NCBI GenBank assembly: GCA_017642935.1
Contig: JAEPOK010000001.1
Span: forward strand, 62,001-126,000
Direction of reading: 5' to 3'
Origin: Hyphomicrobiales bacterium
GTDB taxonomy: Bacteria; Pseudomonadota; Alphaproteobacteria; Rhizobiales; MH13
DNA: 64,000 nt
Below the pieces are notes generated by a model that saw only the letters and a list, made by a program, of their open reading frames with translations, was not told the origin of the DNA and ran no database searches. Made by a program: the position numbers and the translations under genes. Shown here piece after piece: positions 12,159-39,785 of the stretch. Numbering within the stretch: position 1 is the stretch's first letter; the number at the start of each line of letters is the position of its first letter.

Positions 12159-12167
12159 GAGGGTATG

Positions 12168-13247
12168 ATGAACAACTATCAGAACATCTTCACCCGCGTT
12201 CAGGTGATGGGCCATGTTGAGCCCGGCGTCGATATTCCTCGCGACGATGCCGCTTTCGAACGCAAGGGCGGCGTGCTCAGCTACTGGATCGGTAAGATCG
12301 GCAATGCACAGCTGGGACCGATCTATCTTGGCTTCCTTGGCGTCGCTTCGCTTATCACCTTCTCGATCGGTTTCATCATCATCGGCCTCAATATGGCTGC
12401 CGATGTAAATTGGAACCCTGTGCTGTTCGTACGTGAGTTCTTCTGGCTTTCGCTGGACCCGCCGCTGCCAGAGCATGGCCTCGACATTCTGCCACCCCTA
12501 CGTGAGGGCGGCTGGTGGCTGATCTCCGGCTTCTTCATCACGGCCTCCATCCTGTTGTGGTGGGTGCGCATGTACCGGCGGGCGATTGCGCTCGGTCTTG
12601 GCTTGCACGTCGCCTACGCGTTTGCCGCAGCGATCTGGCTCTATTTGGTGCTTGGCTTCATCCGCCCGATTATGATGGGCAGCTGGAGCGAAGCGGTGCC
12701 ATTTGGCGTCTTCCCGCATTTGGATTGGACGAACAATTTCTCCATCGTCTACGGCAATCTGTTCTGGAACCCGTTCCACGCGCTGTCGATTGTGTTCCTC
12801 TACGGTTCGGCGCTGCTGTTTGCCATGCATGGCGCGACGATCCTGGCGGTCACACGCTATGGCGGTGAGCGCGAGATCGAACAGATCACCGATCGCGGTA
12901 CGGCGTCGGAACGCGCAGCTTTGTTCTGGCGCTGGACGATGGGTTTCAACGCCTCGATGGAGTCGATCCACCGTTGGGCCTGGTGGTTTGCGATGCTCTG
13001 CACGCTGACTGGCGGCATCGGCATCCTGATTACCGGAACCGTGGTCGACGACTGGACGCTCTGGGGGATGAAGCACGGGATTGTGCCGGAAGACCTTTCC
13101 TGGTGGCCGATTACGCCCGACTCCACGACCTCTATGTGGGATGTCGAGCCGGCACCACCGCCGATACCGGTTGAGGCGGCCCCCGCCGCCGACGCCATGC
13201 CGGCAGCAGACGGAGCAACGCCGGCGGCTGAGGGAACGACCAACTAG
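12168..13247 (+). CDS. pufM: Photosynthetic reaction centre subunit M with long C-terminal tail
   Basis: Five-helix core subunit with bacteriochlorophyll ligands H184 (FPHLDW) and H204 (NPFHAL) and iron ligands H221 (AMHGAT), E236 and H268 (SIHRWAWWF). The start at 12168 is chosen over the adjacent ATG at 12165 because AGGAGG (12157-12162) is then 5 bases away. The length is 359 residues, about 35-50 more than usual: after MWDVEP the protein continues as a low-complexity Pro/Ala-rich tail (residues about 328-359), which would lie on the periplasmic side. No pufC or pufX follows. Confidence 0.96.
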
Positions 13248-13305: not shown

Positions 13306-13502
13306 GTTGGGTCGTGTTCGTTGAAGGGCGCTTGCCGTGTCACCTGTCAGTCTTTGTCGGGAAGGCTTGGTTCGGCTGTTGTTTCGATAGCGTTGCCCTA
13401 TACGGTCTTGCATAGGCGATGCACAGGGTGGATGGGCGCCTAAACGGCTGTGATCGTCCGGCTCCCAATTGCCATGCAGAATTTCACCAAAGGGGGCGTT
13501 CG

Positions 13503-14051
13503 ATGACAACCGGTCATGTGTTCATCGCGTGCAGCTTGGATGGTTTCATAGCCCGGCCAGATGGTGATCTGGATTGGTTGATGCAGGTCGATACTGACGG
13601 CGAAGGTCATGGCTACGATGACCTGATTGCCTCCGTGGATGGACTGATCATGGGCCGCGGAACCTTTGAAAAAGTGCTAAGTTTTGAGCCTTGGCCGTAT
13701 CACAAGCCGGTCGTCGTGATGAGTGAATCACGTCAGCCGTCGGATGTTCCTGAAGCGTTGGCGGGGCAGGTTGAGATCTGCGATCTATCGCCTTCAGCGG
13801 CGATGGAGAAGGTACGCCGAGCCGGTTGGAAACGCGCCTACATCGATGGCGGCCAACTCATTCAGTCCTTTCTTGCAGCAAGGTTGATTGAGGACATGAT
13901 TATCACCCGTGTCCCGGTTCTCATCGGGCAGGGGTTACCCCTCTTTGGTGAGGTGATTGCCGATGTCCAGCTGGAGCATCTTGGAACCAAGGCGTTTGCG
14001 TCTGGCCTGGTGCAATCGCACTACCGGATTGTGCAAGAGGATTCGCTCTAG
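13503..14051 (+). CDS. RibD C-terminal / dihydrofolate-reductase-fold protein
   Basis: A 182-residue protein of the RibD C-terminal (DHFR-like) superfamily: N-terminal ACSLDGFIARPDGDLDWL, central LIMGRGTFEKVLSF, and the RAYIDGGQLIQSFLAARLIEDM segment, all typical of this fold. Members are NADPH-dependent reductases of unknown substrate. Upstream in-frame starts exist (13419), but the ATG at 13503 follows AAAGGGGGCG and begins the conserved fold. It sits alone between the puf terminator and the convergent puh genes, and no member has a standard photosynthetic role. Confidence 0.85.
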   Translation: MTTGHVFIACSLDGFIARPDGDLDWLMQVDTDGEGHGYDDLIASVDGLIMGRGTFEKVLSFEPWPYHKPVVVMSESRQPSDVPEALAGQVEICDLSPSAAMEKVRRAGWKRAYIDGGQLIQSFLAARLIEDMIITRVPVLIGQGLPLFGEVIADVQLEHLGTKAFASGLVQSHYRIVQEDSL

Positions 14052-14147: not shown

Positions 14148-15296
14148 TCAGGTGCCGCCGGCATGGCCGTAGCGCAGCAGATCAGCTGTGGCGCCAGTTT
14201 CCAACGGTCCGAAGGAATCCAGTCGGATAGACCGGCCGGTAAGGGCGTCGGAAAGATAAACCCCATCATCTGCAAAGCGCTGCAGCTGATAGGGCGCAGC
14301 AAGGTCAAAATCGGAATGATCCCTCGACATGCCAAGGCCGCGCAACGCGCCTCGCAGGAGGCCGTCAGTCCCGGCTTCTACTGTCGTGATCAGGCTGCCA
14401 TCGGCGACGTTTTGAACGGCGATGCGATCACCTTCCAAGGGCAGGAACTGAATCTCTTGGGAAAATTCAGGCAGGCCGGCATTCGCGCGTAGATCGCCGG
14501 TGCCGGTCCATTGCGCAAAGGCAACCACCAGAACCGTTAAAAGCGCCGCACCGGCGGCCATCATGACCAGAGGGCGGGGAATATGATGCGGATCGTGCGC
14601 CTTGGCTTCCTTGCGGTCGGGTTCTGCCTCAACCTTCGGAGCAGCATCAGCATTCAAGGACGCCATGTTGGCGCCGGACCGTTCCAGCGCTTCGGTGGCC
14701 TGCACGTGCGAGGTATAGGTGTCGGTCAGCAGTTTGGCGACGCTTGACGCTTGCGGGATGGCGCGCAGTGTCGGCTCGGTCTGGCGCATCCGCCAAGGCC
14801 GCACATGTGGCCATAAAATGAGATAGGCGAGCGACACGTCGGGCTTCAATTGCAGCGAAAGGCTGCCGACATCGTTTGTGTTGGCGCGCAGCGCAGCACC
14901 GTCAACGACCGCAAACGGTATGTTGAACGTCTTTTGGATCGCCACGCCAACGCGCATCACGAGGCGTTTGTTGGTGATTGTGTAGACTGTGGTTTTTTCC
15001 ACAAACCAGGCGAGCAGCATCAAAATCGCGATGCCAGCAAAGCCAAAAGCGACAATAACGCTCGCCTCGCCAATCGCGGTGCTAAGGCTCGCGCCGCCCG
15101 AAACAGAAAAAGCAACCCGCGCCAACGCGGCCAAGGTGACCAGAATAGCGATCGCGCGGGTGCGAAAAACCTGGCGAGCGAAGGCCCGCCAGGAAGGTGT
15201 TCCTTGCCACAACACGAACTCGCCACGCGGCAGCGTCGCGGGAAGCCCGCGGACAGGCTCTGTGGCGTAGTCATCATGGTTGTGGATGTAGTTCAA
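14148..15296 (-). CDS. puhB: PuhB-PuhC fused photosynthetic complex assembly protein
   Basis: A single 382-residue frame that covers two proteins usually encoded separately. Residues 1-205 match PuhB: two membrane segments (about 45-66 and 80-98) and a PH-like domain with YTITNKRLVMRVG (105-117). Residues 205-240 are a polar, Lys/Glu-rich linker. Residues 241-382 match PuhC: a membrane anchor (about 243-263), a soluble domain, and the C-terminal PYQLQRFADDGVYLSDALTG. PuhB aids reaction-centre assembly and PuhC LH1/reaction-centre organisation. The start overlaps the puhA stop (ATGA), as expected in a puhABC operon. There is no internal stop. Confidence 0.85.
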   Translation of the reverse strand: MNYIHNHDDYATEPVRGLPATLPRGEFVLWQGTPSWRAFARQVFRTRAIAILVTLAALARVAFSVSGGASLSTAIGEASVIVAFGFAGIAILMLLAWFVEKTTVYTITNKRLVMRVGVAIQKTFNIPFAVVDGAALRANTNDVGSLSLQLKPDVSLAYLILWPHVRPWRMRQTEPTLRAIPQASSVAKLLTDTYTSHVQATEALERSGANMASLNADAAPKVEAEPDRKEAKAHDPHHIPRPLVMMAAGAALLTVLVVAFAQWTGTGDLRANAGLPEFSQEIQFLPLEGDRIAVQNVADGSLITTVEAGTDGLLRGALRGLGMSRDHSDFDLAAPYQLQRFADDGVYLSDALTGRSIRLDSFGPLETGATADLLRYGHAGGT

Positions 15297-16090
15297 AGCA
15301 GCGGCTCCGGACGGTCAGGTGCGGCGTAGAAATAGCCGGCACCGAAATAGCCCATGATCTTTTCCTCTTCGAGCATGGTGATCTCGTCGATTTTCGCGGT
15401 CAGCGGAACGTCCGCGAACTGCGATCCTTTGATCGCATGCACATAGAGGTAGGTGTCGGGACGGGTTTTCACGACAGCGAAGTTGGCTGGCATCAAGACC
15501 GTGCGCGCTCCTTCCTCATCGGAGACCTTGATCTCGTAATAGCGGATGACGCTTTCGGCCTGGTCGACCCAGACATCGACAATGGTGCCGCCGACCTGTT
15601 TGTCGACACCGACCACGTTGCAGCCGATGGGATTGGGATCGCCATCGGGGATCCCAAAAGCTTCGACCATGCGCATCGGGCGAATCTTGACCGCGCCGGA
15701 ATTCAACAGATCCGGGACATCAGCGCGCAAGGCGTAGGCGCCAGGGCCAACGCCATCGAGCATCGGATTGTCGCCCGTCGGGTCTTTGGGAGCGCCGGAC
15801 CATGGCTCGCTCGGTTGCAGCGCTAGCTCGCGGGCCTCGCGCTCATAGTTCGGAACGGTGACGTCGCCATGGCCATGCGGCAAACGGAACGTCTTTGGCT
15901 CAGGCATGTAAATGCCGTGCTCATAGATATTGCCTGTTTCGTCCGACTCCAGCGGATAGCCTTCGCGACGCGTTTCCCTTTGCAGGTAAAACAGCAAATA
16001 GCCGAAAAACAGCCAGAACGCGTACAGCAGAACCTGCGCGAGGTCCAAATGCGTGGTGAAGTTGACGAAATCGAATTGGGTATAATCCAT
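15293..16090 (-). CDS. puhA: Photosynthetic reaction centre subunit H
   Basis: A 265-residue H subunit: short periplasmic N-terminus MDYTQFDFVNFTTHLDLAQ, one membrane helix (about residues 18-36), then YLQRETRREGYPLESD and a cytoplasmic PRC-barrel domain with VVGVDKQVGGTIVDVWVDQ. It caps the L/M core and conducts protons to QB. A GGAGG ribosome binding site lies just upstream (complement of 16095-16099). It is the first gene of puhA-puhBC and is not next to lhaA as in most clusters. Confidence 0.96.
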   Translation of the reverse strand: MDYTQFDFVNFTTHLDLAQVLLYAFWLFFGYLLFYLQRETRREGYPLESDETGNIYEHGIYMPEPKTFRLPHGHGDVTVPNYEREARELALQPSEPWSGAPKDPTGDNPMLDGVGPGAYALRADVPDLLNSGAVKIRPMRMVEAFGIPDGDPNPIGCNVVGVDKQVGGTIVDVWVDQAESVIRYYEIKVSDEEGARTVLMPANFAVVKTRPDTYLYVHAIKGSQFADVPLTAKIDEITMLEEEKIMGYFGAGYFYAAPDRPEPLL

Positions 16091-20353: not shown

Positions 20354-21706
20354 CTAGGCGACGGCCCGCGATAGAGCGCATTGCGACCAAAGATCGTTGA
20401 GCGCGCTCACGAGCTGGGCGATGTCACCGTCCGTGTGCAGTGGGCCTGGCGTGATGCGCAGGCGCTCGGTGCCCTTGGGGACCGTCGGATAGTTGATGGG
20501 CTGGATGTAAATTCCATACCGATCGAGAAGTACGTCGCTGATAAACTTACATTTTTTAGCGTCACCTACCATCACCGGAATGATATGGCTCGGGTTCGGC
20601 AGATGCGGGATGCCTTTGGCGTCCAGTGCCGCACGGACCTTAGCCACACGCTCTTTCTGCGCCTCGCGCTCCACCGAGCTTTCTTTCAAATGCTGAATGG
20701 AGGCGGTTGCACCGGCTGCGATGGATGGTGGAAGCGCGGTTGTGAAAATGAAGCCCGAGGAGAACGAGCGGACATAATCACAGAGCGCAGCTGAGGCCGC
20801 GATGTAGCCGCCCATGACGCCAAATGCCTTGCCAAGCGTGCCCTCAACAACGGTGATCCGGTCCATGACGCCGTCGCGTTCGGCAATGCCAGCACCGCGT
20901 GGCCCGTACATGCCAACCGCGTGGACTTCGTCCAGGTAGGTCATCGCGCCATGTTTTTCAGCCACTTCAACGATCTCGAGCATCGGCGCGATGTCGCCAT
21001 CCATCGAGTAGACCGACTCAAAGGCGACGATCTTCGGTCGGCCGGGTGCAATATCGGAAAGCTTGCGATCAAGATCCTCCGGATCATTGTGCTTCCAAAT
21101 CATCTTGTCGGCGCGCGAATGGCGAATGCCTTCGATCATGGAAGCGTGATTGAGTGCATCGGACAGAATCACGCAGTCGGGGATTGTCGACCCCAATGTA
21201 CCGAGGGATGCCCAGTTGGAAACATAGCCGGAGGTGAAGATCAGCGCGGCTTCTTTGCCATGAAGATCCGCCAATTCCTGCTCCAGGAGCACATGAAAAT
21301 GGTTGGTGCCGGAAATGTTGCGAGTGCCGCCTGCGCCTGCGCCACAGCGCTCAATCGCGCCGTGCATGGCATCGATCACACACTGCTCCTGGCCCATGCC
21401 GAGATAGTCGTTTGAGCACCAGACCGTGACATCGTGGATGCCATCCGCGGTGTGGCGTTTGGCTTTGGGAAATGCGCCCATCTTACGTTCCAAATGAGCG
21501 AAAACGCGGTAGTTACCATTGTCGCGCAAACCGTCCAGAGCGCCGTTGAAGAACGCTTCATAATCCATCTGCTCGTCATTGGCGGCGACGGGATGCTCGT
21601 GCGTTTCGGTGATCAGATTGCCGGCTGGGCAACGCTGAACAGATCTCAGACCATCGAACGGAACAGTGCCATTCTCATTGTCGTTGGGTGTGGGTGTGTC
21701 CGTCAT
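20354..21706 (-). other. hemA: 5-aminolevulinate synthase module with possible internal start
   Basis: An in-frame ATG at 21706 ([10 protein letters not shown]) is preceded by GGGGACACTTTACC, a possible ribosome binding site about 10 bases away; it would give a free HemA of 450 residues. The usual HemA start corresponds to MDYEAFF at 21568. The 46 residues between contain a Cys-Pro pair (RCPAGN, C26-P27 from the internal start), the form of a haem regulatory motif known from eukaryotic ALAS. Whether it binds haem here is not known. Confidence 0.65.
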
Positions 21707-22582
21707 GGTAAAGTGTCCCCGATTGGAATGCGCGTCGGAAAACGCGTCAGATGCGCGCCGTTGATCGGCTTTTTGCGTGATGGTTGAACGTTCAATGGAA
21801 GATTTCTCGGCCTCGCCAACTGAGTCCGGTAGGGGGCGCCGGAGATACCAGCGCCAGAGTTCCTCATCGCGCCAGGGCAGAACGAGAAACCAATGCTCGA
21901 TGACGCCAAGGGCAGCGAGTGTCGTGAGTAGAACAAAAGTCGTTTGGGTTGGCGGCACGGCGCCCAAGGCTTGTTGCGCCAGCCAGGCCGTGAGGAGCGT
22001 GCCTGCCGTCACCGAGAGCGGGAAAAGCAGGTTGAGTGCGCGATTGCGGAAATAGCTTTTCAGATGCTCCAGATGGCTGGGCAGAAACTCCTCGGTGATG
22101 TTCGGCACACCGAGGAAGATGTTGAACTTGGTGGAAAGGCGCATCGCCCAAAGGATCATGAAAGTCCAAAGCGCGGTCTGGTTGCCGGCCGTCCAAAGCG
22201 CTGCGACCAGCCCGACGACCGTCAGCGCGATGGCCAGTTCATGGTGGATCAGCGTCTGGGTGGCGTATCTGAACCGTTGCCAGCCCTTCGCATCCGATGG
22301 GCAGTCGGTGCGGCGCGGGCCGGTGATCGTTCCGGTCAGAAAGCTCACCTCGTGCCAACCCCAGAACGCCAGCCCCGCCGTGAAGGCGATAAAGGCGCCG
22401 CTGACGGTCATCACGTCGCGCGTTAGCCAGACGGCAACGATGGCAGCGATGCCAAAGAGGCTCGCCACCGCCATGGTTGCGCGTGGCGTGATACGCGGCA
22501 GCCGGTCGGCCAGCAGAATCACCCCGGTGGAAAACCACCAGAGGAACAGCGCAAATCCGATCGGGGCGAGCCAGCTGGTCAC
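20354..22582 (-). CDS. puhE-hemA: PuhE-HemA open frame: assembly protein PuhE joined to 5-aminolevulinate synthase
   Basis: One uninterrupted 742-residue frame. Residues 1-250 are PuhE (DUF3623): seven or so membrane segments, [30 protein letters not shown], and the end [10 protein letters not shown]. About 55 polar residues follow with no stop. From about 339 on it is a full class I ALA synthase: [41 protein letters not shown], and the PLP lysine in EGTLGKAFG. PuhE and hemA are usually adjacent but separate genes. Either a real fusion is made, or HemA starts at an internal ATG (21706). PuhE tunes bacteriochlorophyll synthesis; HemA makes 5-aminolevulinate from glycine and succinyl-CoA. It follows acsF by 10 bases. 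Confidence 0.88.
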
Positions 22583-24018: not shown

Positions 24019-25470
24019 TTATCCGGGGAATTCGGCAAGGCCAAAGCCCTGCCTGTTGGTGGTGGTGTCCGTGGCGCGTCGCTGTGCGCCGACAAGCGGG
24101 CCCAAAACGATGAGCGTTGCGAAGAGCAGTCCGATTTCCAGGTGGTAGACAGCCCCATAACCAAAGGCTGGATCGGTGATGACCCGGCCAAAAAGCCCCG
24201 AACTTCCCATGGCTGTGAAGAGGTCGCGCAGTGCGCCACCGGCCGCCAGGCCAAGGCCAGCCGCCGTTGCGTTGACGGCACCCCATGCGCCGAGCGCGAT
24301 ACCATTGGTAGAACGTCCGTCGGCTGTGGTTTTTGCCAGCTGCATGGTTGCGGTGAGTAGGCAGACGGCAAAAAGGCCGCTGCCAAACCCGATCATCGCG
24401 GTTGCGCCGCGGAACATGAAGGCGGATTGAAGTGGTGCTGACAACACAACGAGTGTGAAACCGACTACACCGATTACCGCGCCCAAACCGGCATAGCGGT
24501 AGGGGTCGCAATTGTTGCCCAGGCGCTGTGCTGCCAAGGCAAACCCAGCCAGTGTGCCACCGGCAAAGAGGGCCGTGAGCAGTGTCGTGGCGCTGACGGA
24601 CAGGCCAAGAACTTGCCCGCCATAGGGTTCCAGCAGGATATCCTGCATGGAAAACGCCAGTGTCCCCAAACCAACCGCCAACAACAAACGGCCGGTGCGG
24701 TTGGTGCTGGTGAAGGCGCGCCAGGCCTCTGAGAAGGTTGGCCGATCAAGGTGCGGCGCGGTGGCGGCTGGGTTGCGCGCCTCTTGTTTCCAGAGCGCCA
24801 CCATGTTGAGCACAATGGTGACGACCGCTGCGCCCTGGATGACTTGGATGAGCCGTTGGTGGCTGAAGTCAGCCAGGAGCCAGGAGAAGCCCAGCGCACC
24901 GATCACCATACCGATGAGCAACATAACGTAGAGCAGCGCGACAACGCGCGGGCGCGCCTCTTCTGGGGCCAGATCGGTCGCCAGTGCTAGCCCGGCGGTT
25001 TGCGTGGTGTGCAGGCCAAGGCCGATTAGCAGGAAGCCAAGGCCGGTGATGATGTGACCAAGGAAGAACGGCCCGCCACCGACGCTCATCAGCAGAATGG
25101 CCATCGGCATGATCGCCAGGCCGCCGAACTGAAAAATGGTGCCAAACCAGATGAAGGGCACACGCTTCCAGCCGAGCAGGGATTTATGGGTGTCGGACTT
25201 ATGCCCGATAAGCGCTCGCAGAGGCGCGAATAGCAAAGGCAGCGCCACCATGATGGAAACGAGCCAGGCCGGCACTGATAGTTCCAGGATCATCACACGG
25301 TTCAGCGTGCCGGTGATCAGCGTTACGGCCATTCCGACGGAAATCTGGAACAGCGCCAGGCGCAGCAAGCGGGGCAGCGGCAGTTCATCGGTTGCAGCAT
25401 CGGCAAACGGCAGGAATCGTGGCCCAATCTTGGTCCACTGATCTTTCAGCTGGGGCAGCCGTCTGCTCAC
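24019..25470 (-). CDS. lhaA: LhaA, LH1 assembly protein of the PucC/BCD transporter family
   Basis: A 483-residue MFS-fold membrane protein with about 12 segments. Signatures: GTLNRVMILELSVPAWLVS, PLRALIGHKSDTHKS, GWKRVPFIWFGTIFQFGG, FSMQDILLEPYGG and GAWGAVNATAAGLG. LhaA assists LH1 assembly and may hand over bacteriochlorophyll. The GTG start overlaps the bchM stop. In most clusters puhA follows; here puhD follows directly after 23 bases. Confidence 0.93.
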   Translation of the reverse strand: MSRRLPQLKDQWTKIGPRFLPFADAATDELPLPRLLRLALFQISVGMAVTLITGTLNRVMILELSVPAWLVSIMVALPLLFAPLRALIGHKSDTHKSLLGWKRVPFIWFGTIFQFGGLAIMPMAILLMSVGGGPFFLGHIITGLGFLLIGLGLHTTQTAGLALATDLAPEEARPRVVALLYVMLLIGMVIGALGFSWLLADFSHQRLIQVIQGAAVVTIVLNMVALWKQEARNPAATAPHLDRPTFSEAWRAFTSTNRTGRLLLAVGLGTLAFSMQDILLEPYGGQVLGLSVSATTLLTALFAGGTLAGFALAAQRLGNNCDPYRYAGLGAVIGVVGFTLVVLSAPLQSAFMFRGATAMIGFGSGLFAVCLLTATMQLAKTTADGRSTNGIALGAWGAVNATAAGLGLAAGGALRDLFTAMGSSGLFGRVITDPAFGYGAVYHLEIGLLFATLIVLGPLVGAQRRATDTTTNRQGFGLAEFPG

Positions 25471-32485: not shown

Positions 32486-34377
<1,892 letters not shown>

Positions 34378-38417: not shown

Positions 38418-39785
38418 ATGGCTGCGACGGACGTGAAACCTCTCGGTTGGCTCGGCATTGTGCGCCTCGGCCTGGTGCAAACTGCCCTTGGCGCCATTGT
38501 CATTCTGACCACCTCGACCCTCAACCGGGTGATGGTGGTGGAGCTGATGTTGCCGGCGATGGTGCCAGGTATTCTGGTCGGCATCCATTATGCGGTGCAG
38601 CTATCGCGCCCGCGCTGGGGTTACGGCTCGGATATGGGTGGCCGGCGCACGCCGTGGATCATTGGCGGCATGGCCGTTCTCGCCCTTGGGGGCGTTACGG
38701 CGGCGTTGTCCGTTGCCTTGATGGCGTCGAACACGGTTCTGGGCCTGATCGCCGCAACGCTTTCCTTTGTCGCCATCGGCGTCGGCGTTGGCGCGTCGGG
38801 CACATCCTTACTCACGCTGCTTGCTGTGCGCGTTGCACCCGAACGACGGGCGCCTGCCGCCACGATTGTCTGGGTGATGATGATCGTTGGCTTCATCCTG
38901 ACGGCCGCCATCGCAGGCGGTCAGCTTGACCCCTTCTCGATGACCCGCCTTGTGGTGGTGACGTCCATTGTCTCCGCGCTTGCCTTTGCGCTGACGCTTG
39001 TTGCTGTGGTGGGCCTTGAAGGCGCGCCGCAAAGCAAGCCGGTTGTTGAACCCTCCGTTGCTGCAGAGGCGAAGCCGCCGTTCCGTCAGGTGATTGCAGA
39101 AGTCTGGGCCGAGCCAAAAGCACGCAATTTCTCGATCTTCGTCTTCGCGTCCATGCTCGCCTATTCGACGCAGGATCTGATCCTCGAACCCTTTGCCGGC
39201 GCCGTTTACGGTTACACGCCCGGTGCTTCGACGCAGCTTGCCGGCACCCAGCATGGAGGCGTGCTTCTTGGCATGATCGTTGTAGCGTTGGCCGGCATGG
39301 GCTTCAAAGGGCGGCGCTTCGGCAGCCTGCAAGCCTGGACGGTTGGCGGCTGTGTCGCGTCGGGGCTCGCCTTGTTTGCCCTTGCCGTGTCGAGCCGCTT
39401 TGCCGAGGTTTGGCCGCTACAAGCCAATGTATTTGCGCTGGGATTTGCCAATGGCGCTTTTGCTGTCGCGGCCATCGGATCGATGATGAGCCTGGCGTCG
39501 GAAGGCGGGAAAAACCGCGAAGGCGTGCGCATGGGGCTTTGGGGCGCGGCGCAGGCCATTGCCTTCGGCCTCGGCGGCCTGGTTGGCACCATGGGTATCG
39601 ACATCACCCGCGCGCTCACCGGCTCGGTCACCTTTTCCTACACGACCGTCTTCACCTTGGAAGGCATCGTGTTCTTGATTTCAGCACTGCTCGCCGCGCG
39701 CATCGGCATGAACCATGTGGCCGAGCAGCGGAACCGGCTGTCCGTCGCTGGCGACGGTTATCTTTCGGGCGTTGGAGGCCCTTAG
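38418..39785 (+). CDS. PucC-family MFS protein between bchG and bchP
   Basis: A 455-residue BCD-transporter-family protein (often called orf428 or bchP2), related to lhaA in this window: TSTLNRVMVVELMLPAMVPG, RPRWGYGSDMGGRRTPWIIGG, YSTQDLILEPFAG and GLWGAAQAIAFGLGG. About 12 membrane segments. Role in pigment handling or antenna assembly is inferred from family and from its fixed place between bchG and bchP. Starts directly after the bchG stop. Confidence 0.9.
   Translation: MAATDVKPLGWLGIVRLGLVQTALGAIVILTTSTLNRVMVVELMLPAMVPGILVGIHYAVQLSRPRWGYGSDMGGRRTPWIIGGMAVLALGGVTAALSVALMASNTVLGLIAATLSFVAIGVGVGASGTSLLTLLAVRVAPERRAPAATIVWVMMIVGFILTAAIAGGQLDPFSMTRLVVVTSIVSALAFALTLVAVVGLEGAPQSKPVVEPSVAAEAKPPFRQVIAEVWAEPKARNFSIFVFASMLAYSTQDLILEPFAGAVYGYTPGASTQLAGTQHGGVLLGMIVVALAGMGFKGRRFGSLQAWTVGGCVASGLALFALAVSSRFAEVWPLQANVFALGFANGAFAVAAIGSMMSLASEGGKNREGVRMGLWGAAQAIAFGLGGLVGTMGIDITRALTGSVTFSYTTVFTLEGIVFLISALLAARIGMNHVAEQRNRLSVAGDGYLSGVGGP

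Follow-up and report, generated by a model that had tools for sequence, protein, structure and literature searches.

The locus analysed here raises the question of whether PuhB and PuhC, two factors that aid assembly of the photosynthetic core complex, can be parts of a single protein and, if so, what their union says about how they act. In Rhodobacter capsulatus, genetic analyses showed that PuhB aids reaction-centre assembly and affects LH1, and that PuhC affects RC-LH1 organisation. In the window (the whole 64,000-nucleotide stretch of DNA that was analysed), the fused gene puhBC lies at 14148..15296 on the minus strand, as an open frame of 382 codons that runs from a TTG at 15296 to a TGA ending at 14148 and encodes a protein with a calculated mass of 41.1 kDa. 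The original prediction placed the gene correctly but left out the strand, and its figure of approx. 42 kDa was slightly too high. Directly upstream lies puhA, the gene for the reaction-centre H subunit (15293..16090, minus strand; TIGR01150, E 4.1e-97), whose stop codon shares four bases, TTGA, with the TTG start of puhBC.

Both parts of the product are recognised by curated NCBIfam models. Residues 7-182 (14751..15278, minus strand) match the PuhB model NF040894 over its full length (1-176/176; E 8.1e-61; 204.9 bits against a cut-off of 110), and residues 239-374 (14175..14582, minus strand) match positions 1-137 of the 138 in the PuhC model TIGR03054 (E 8.1e-26; 90.9 bits against a cut-off of 55); the linker comprises residues 183-238 (14583..14750, minus strand). 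Thus, both models score above cut-off in one frame, in agreement with the single 382-residue PuhB-PuhC frame proposed earlier, and the PuhC identity then assigned to residues 241-382 is borne out by the TIGR03054 match. The sole Pfam match, bPH_2 on residues 102-138, is borderline (21.7 bits against a gathering score of 22; E 2.4e-4), and no further match to the fused protein was found in the source genome. When 40 fused and unfused relatives were aligned, the near-invariant residues proved to be retained in the PuhB and PuhC halves alike; in particular, R325, D350, and G363 of PuhC are preserved. These results confirm that puhBC is a genuine fusion of puhB and puhC in one gene.

The two halves resemble the known families in most respects. 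Like members of NF040894, the PuhB part follows puhA, matches the whole model, keeps the conserved residues, and is predicted to have the layout of two helices and a bacterial PH fold; unlike them, it runs on past its C-terminal helix into PuhC. Similarly, the PuhC part is predicted to have the membrane helix and subsequent domain of TIGR03054 proteins, but it is tethered to PuhB and lacks a separate conserved start or ribosome site. The fused gene therefore departs from the free-standing arrangement of puhC as a separate gene with its own start; since that arrangement, although usual, is no part of the family model, the PuhC half stays a member of the family. The plasmid pTs485 of Ca. Thiodictyon syntrophicum (NZ_CP020372.1) offers a comparison: puhB and puhC are adjacent after puhA in the same order as here, but as two annotated genes 78 bases apart.

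To place the fusion among its relatives, 117 distinct PuhB-PuhC loci were compared, of which seven are fused and 110 unfused. The continuous frame occurs in all four genomes examined from the genus (G000, the genome of the window, and G002, G003, and G004, with 49-67% identity to the window's protein) and in three carriers outside it, each from a further GTDB family: G064 (family f14), G261 (family f18), and G720 (family f67, of the same class but another order). The proteins of the other six carriers are about 36-67% identical to that of the window, and no fusion beyond the seven was found in a phylum-wide sample of 398 genomes. A survey of related genomes, suggested in the original prediction, has thus revealed the same fusion in six further genomes, half of them outside the genus. 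In the unfused loci, the two domains share a frame in 44 of 110 cases, 43 of them with exactly one stop between the domains, and lie in different frames or far apart in the remaining 66. Among them, locus L089 (Roseibium denhamense) has 4.5 kb between its PuhB and PuhC domains, which are not adjacent. An assembly or sequencing error that took out a stop or shifted the frame could in principle mimic a fusion, the more so as draft genomes are present among the carriers and five carriers match metagenome-assembled genomes. However, the same open frame recurs in seven separately assembled genomes with divergent DNA; the fusion is therefore not regarded as an artefact, and an error of this kind is so improbable that it can be set aside for practical purposes. 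For the same reason, a stop between the halves, which resequencing had been proposed to reveal, is unlikely.

The carriers form a single group whenever genes of the cluster are compared. In a tree of the PuhB and PuhC domains from which most of the linker was excluded, the seven carriers form one clade (SH-aLRT 100), as they do in trees of PuhA (support 99) and PufM (100/100). The support values of the 117-row PuhBC and 114-row PuhA trees are SH-aLRT values from a quick search; the PufM and RpoB trees were bootstrapped. In contrast, the RpoB host tree places the carriers in four positions, so that the fusion needs four changes, and a topology in which they are constrained to one clade is rejected (p-AU 8.7e-56). 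Three of the four placements adjoin relatives in which puhB and puhC are unfused (G064 with G017, G261 with G102, and G720 with G543). Because the cluster genes give one clade and the host marker scatters the same genomes, the fusion probably arose once, and the photosynthesis gene cluster lineage that carries it has probably moved horizontally between hosts. G102 also contains a second, very divergent puhA-puhB-puhC set (C1:3856500-3861000; L035 1-2600), which is accompanied by a separate PufM close by (C1:3854574) and forms a long branch distinct from the ordinary G102 cluster.

The junction itself suggests how the two genes were joined. In typical unfused loci, the PuhB stop runs into a GGAG-type ribosome site, which is followed by the PuhC start. 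The fusion would have arisen by loss of the short stretch with the stop and ribosome site between adjacent puhB and puhC. The distance from domain to domain is 90-132 nt in fused loci, compared with medians of 147 and 123.5 nt in unfused ones; as fused spacing is no longer than unfused spacing, the linker consists of the merged native tails, with no module added. Many genomes are one or a few mutations away from a fusion, yet a single fused clade was found. The linker had been described as charged and about 35 residues long. The gap between the family matches is 56 residues, approximately 28 of which (213-240) are predicted to be flexible, and the charged composition holds in the genus but gives way to an Ala/Pro-rich one in two of the other carriers. 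Among the seven carriers, aligned linkers are 50-64 amino acids long, and all insertions and deletions are in frame.

Two AlphaFold2 models of the protein agree (mean pLDDT 89.1 and 88.1), with near-identical secondary structure. The alignment behind the first mixed rows of separate PuhB and PuhC, and MAFFT misplaced roughly half of every PuhC row onto PuhB; the second was built on a clean alignment, in which, for modelling purposes, the single stop of in-frame unfused pairs was ignored. In the modelled PuhB part, helices 46-66 and 71-102 precede a PH fold at about 104-181. The modelled linker begins as a long helix from 183 to about 212, which prolongs the PuhB helix, and continues as a low-confidence stretch at about 213-240. 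In the PuhC part, residues 241-263 form a membrane helix, and a domain of mixed alpha/beta structure follows and extends to residue 379. The predictions thus agree with the earlier description of two membrane segments and a PH-like domain followed by a second anchor. Structure searches returned PH domains that match the PuhB part and filled the match lists; a sequence search for a relative with a solved structure gave none that was convincing. Segment 100-182 is basic (11 K/R, 5 D/E) and segment 264-382 acidic (9 K/R, 17 D/E), a charge bias that fits the predicted topology with the PH domain in the cytoplasm and the PuhC domain in the periplasm.

Whether the gene yields one product or two bears directly on what the fusion could do. 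Across the seven carriers, there is no in-frame start with a ribosome site that is common to the linkers, and none of the seven genomes encodes a second PuhC above cut-off. These two observations, together with the reading frame that is preserved in linkers of differing length, favour a single product of about 41 kDa, which is likely; a truncated form may also occur. If the product is single, PuhB and PuhC would be fixed at a 1:1 ratio; this stoichiometry follows from the single product. Translation might also begin at a start codon in the linker, so that PuhC would be made additionally, and candidate codons exist: an ATG at residue 211, and single in-linker ATGs preceded by weak SD-like GGAG or GGAGG sequences in L004 and L118. 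However, the ATG at residue 211 has an SD-like match of only three bases and does not occur in L002, the closest relative (67% identical), no start is shared by the clade, and the puhE-hemA frame of the same cluster, by contrast, retains a conserved MTD start. Internal initiation is hence considered improbable. Cleavage of the polypeptide in its flexible tether, which would release ordinary free PuhB and PuhC, is rated only marginally higher and is likewise doubtful. The tether at 213-240 is predicted to be disordered, and its rate of evolution exceeds that of the domains (pN 0.38 vs 0.17; dN/dS is uninformative for the linker, as synonymous sites are saturated), but a plain tether would look equally like a fast, disordered linker, and the seven members have no tether sequence motif in common.

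If one polypeptide is made, a possible course of events can be outlined. The TTGA overlap would couple translation of puhBC to that of puhA, and helices 1 and 2 would anchor PuhB so that its PH domain faces the cytoplasm close to the H subunit. Beyond the flexible tether, helix 3 would carry the PuhC domain in the periplasm, so that the fused protein could offer both aids to one nascent RC-LH1 complex at a constant 1:1 ratio. The PuhB and PuhC halves would then act jointly, and the fusion may physically link reaction-centre assembly with LH1 closure, as originally proposed. In Dinoroseobacter shibae, a transposon insertion in puhB (puhB::Tn) alters pigmentation and leads to accumulation of Mg-protoporphyrin monomethyl ester (PMC10890935). 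Taken as a whole, a fusion of single origin and single polypeptide, carried in a horizontally moving cluster lineage and bringing both aids at 1:1 to the same nascent RC-LH1, is the reading that we hold with considerable confidence. A stronger proposal, in which the protein is a trans-membrane scaffold that obligatorily couples cytoplasmic H-subunit and reaction-centre assembly with periplasmic RC-LH1 organisation and has been selected in the horizontally moving lineage, is tentative and rather unlikely; if true, it would mean that PuhB and PuhC normally work together as a complex. Neutral fixation is a serious rival, to which we assign slightly less than an even chance. According to this explanation, a stop was lost once and the fused gene was then carried along without functional consequence. 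The step is mutationally easy, as seen from the unfused loci in which one in-frame stop separates the domains, the linker consists of merged tails, and the sample contains one origin only. Against neutrality, the fusion has been retained through several host changes and a divergence so deep that protein identity falls to about 36%, with the reading frame kept at every linker indel. Nevertheless, any fusion in which the second half lacks a separate start should be retained in this way, and the retention is thus no proof of benefit. Neutrality is also compatible with a single fused product, and the likelihoods given here to the rival explanations are not mutually exclusive.

The preferred reading, a single fused protein that serves one nascent complex, matters because PuhB and PuhC are both poorly understood, and a natural fusion hints that their actions coincide in space and time. 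The fusion yields a specific, testable prediction, namely that PuhB and PuhC interact in ordinary purple bacteria. Moreover, its presence makes it easy to recognise one lineage of photosynthesis gene clusters, which is apparently spreading horizontally. No PuhB-PuhC fusion or partnership was found in the open-licence literature searched, the coverage of which is limited, so that this absence is no proof; where PMC10576062 uses the term 'puhBC', it appears to abbreviate the operon.

In the window, puhBC lies in a photosynthesis gene cluster setting, with bch, puf, lhaA, and acsF genes around it. The genes identified on the minus strand run in the order bchN-bchB-(1270-aa frame)-bchL-bchM-lhaA/pucC-type-acsF-puhE/hemA-cytochrome c-bchE-bchJ-idi-puhA-puhBC. 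The order listed for D. shibae (PMC6052148) is lhaA-puhA-puhB-puhC-hyp-acsF-puhE-hemA-cycA; compared with this, puhA-puhBC stands at the far end here. The convergent neighbour of puhBC is pufM (12165..13247, plus strand; TIGR01115), which served as a tree marker; the convergent arrangement is found in six of the seven carriers, and in G261 both genes are on the same strand. A RibD_C/dihydrofolate-reductase-like gene (13419-14051, plus strand) occupies the interval from pufM to the puhBC end. Two proteins of the PucC/LhaA family, another class of core-complex assembly factors, are encoded in the cluster: one upstream of puhBC (24019..25470, minus strand; PUCC PF03209, E 9.7e-141) and one at 38418-39785 on the plus strand. 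A 576-aa frame at 32486-34216 was considered as a third fusion and rejected, as only BchN was matched and the first 160 residues match nothing.

A second merged frame of the cluster joins PuhE and HemA (5-aminolevulinate synthase) at 20354..22582 on the minus strand, with TIGR03055 matched by residues 10-247 and TIGR01821 by residues 339-739. No stop interrupts this frame of 742 amino acids, either here or in G003, the closest relative; in G002 and G004 the two genes do not share such a frame. Apparent PuhE-HemA fusions in several families were discarded because the DNA contains an in-frame stop; among the genomes read, the frame is continuous only in G000 and G003. The merged frame retains an internal MTD start after GGGGA, similar to the MTD starts upstream of HemA in G002 and G004, and HemA may thus also be made alone. 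In addition to the 5-aminolevulinate synthase gene that is merged with PuhE, G000 has a separate second gene for this enzyme at C3:12717-13943; the two are 78% identical.
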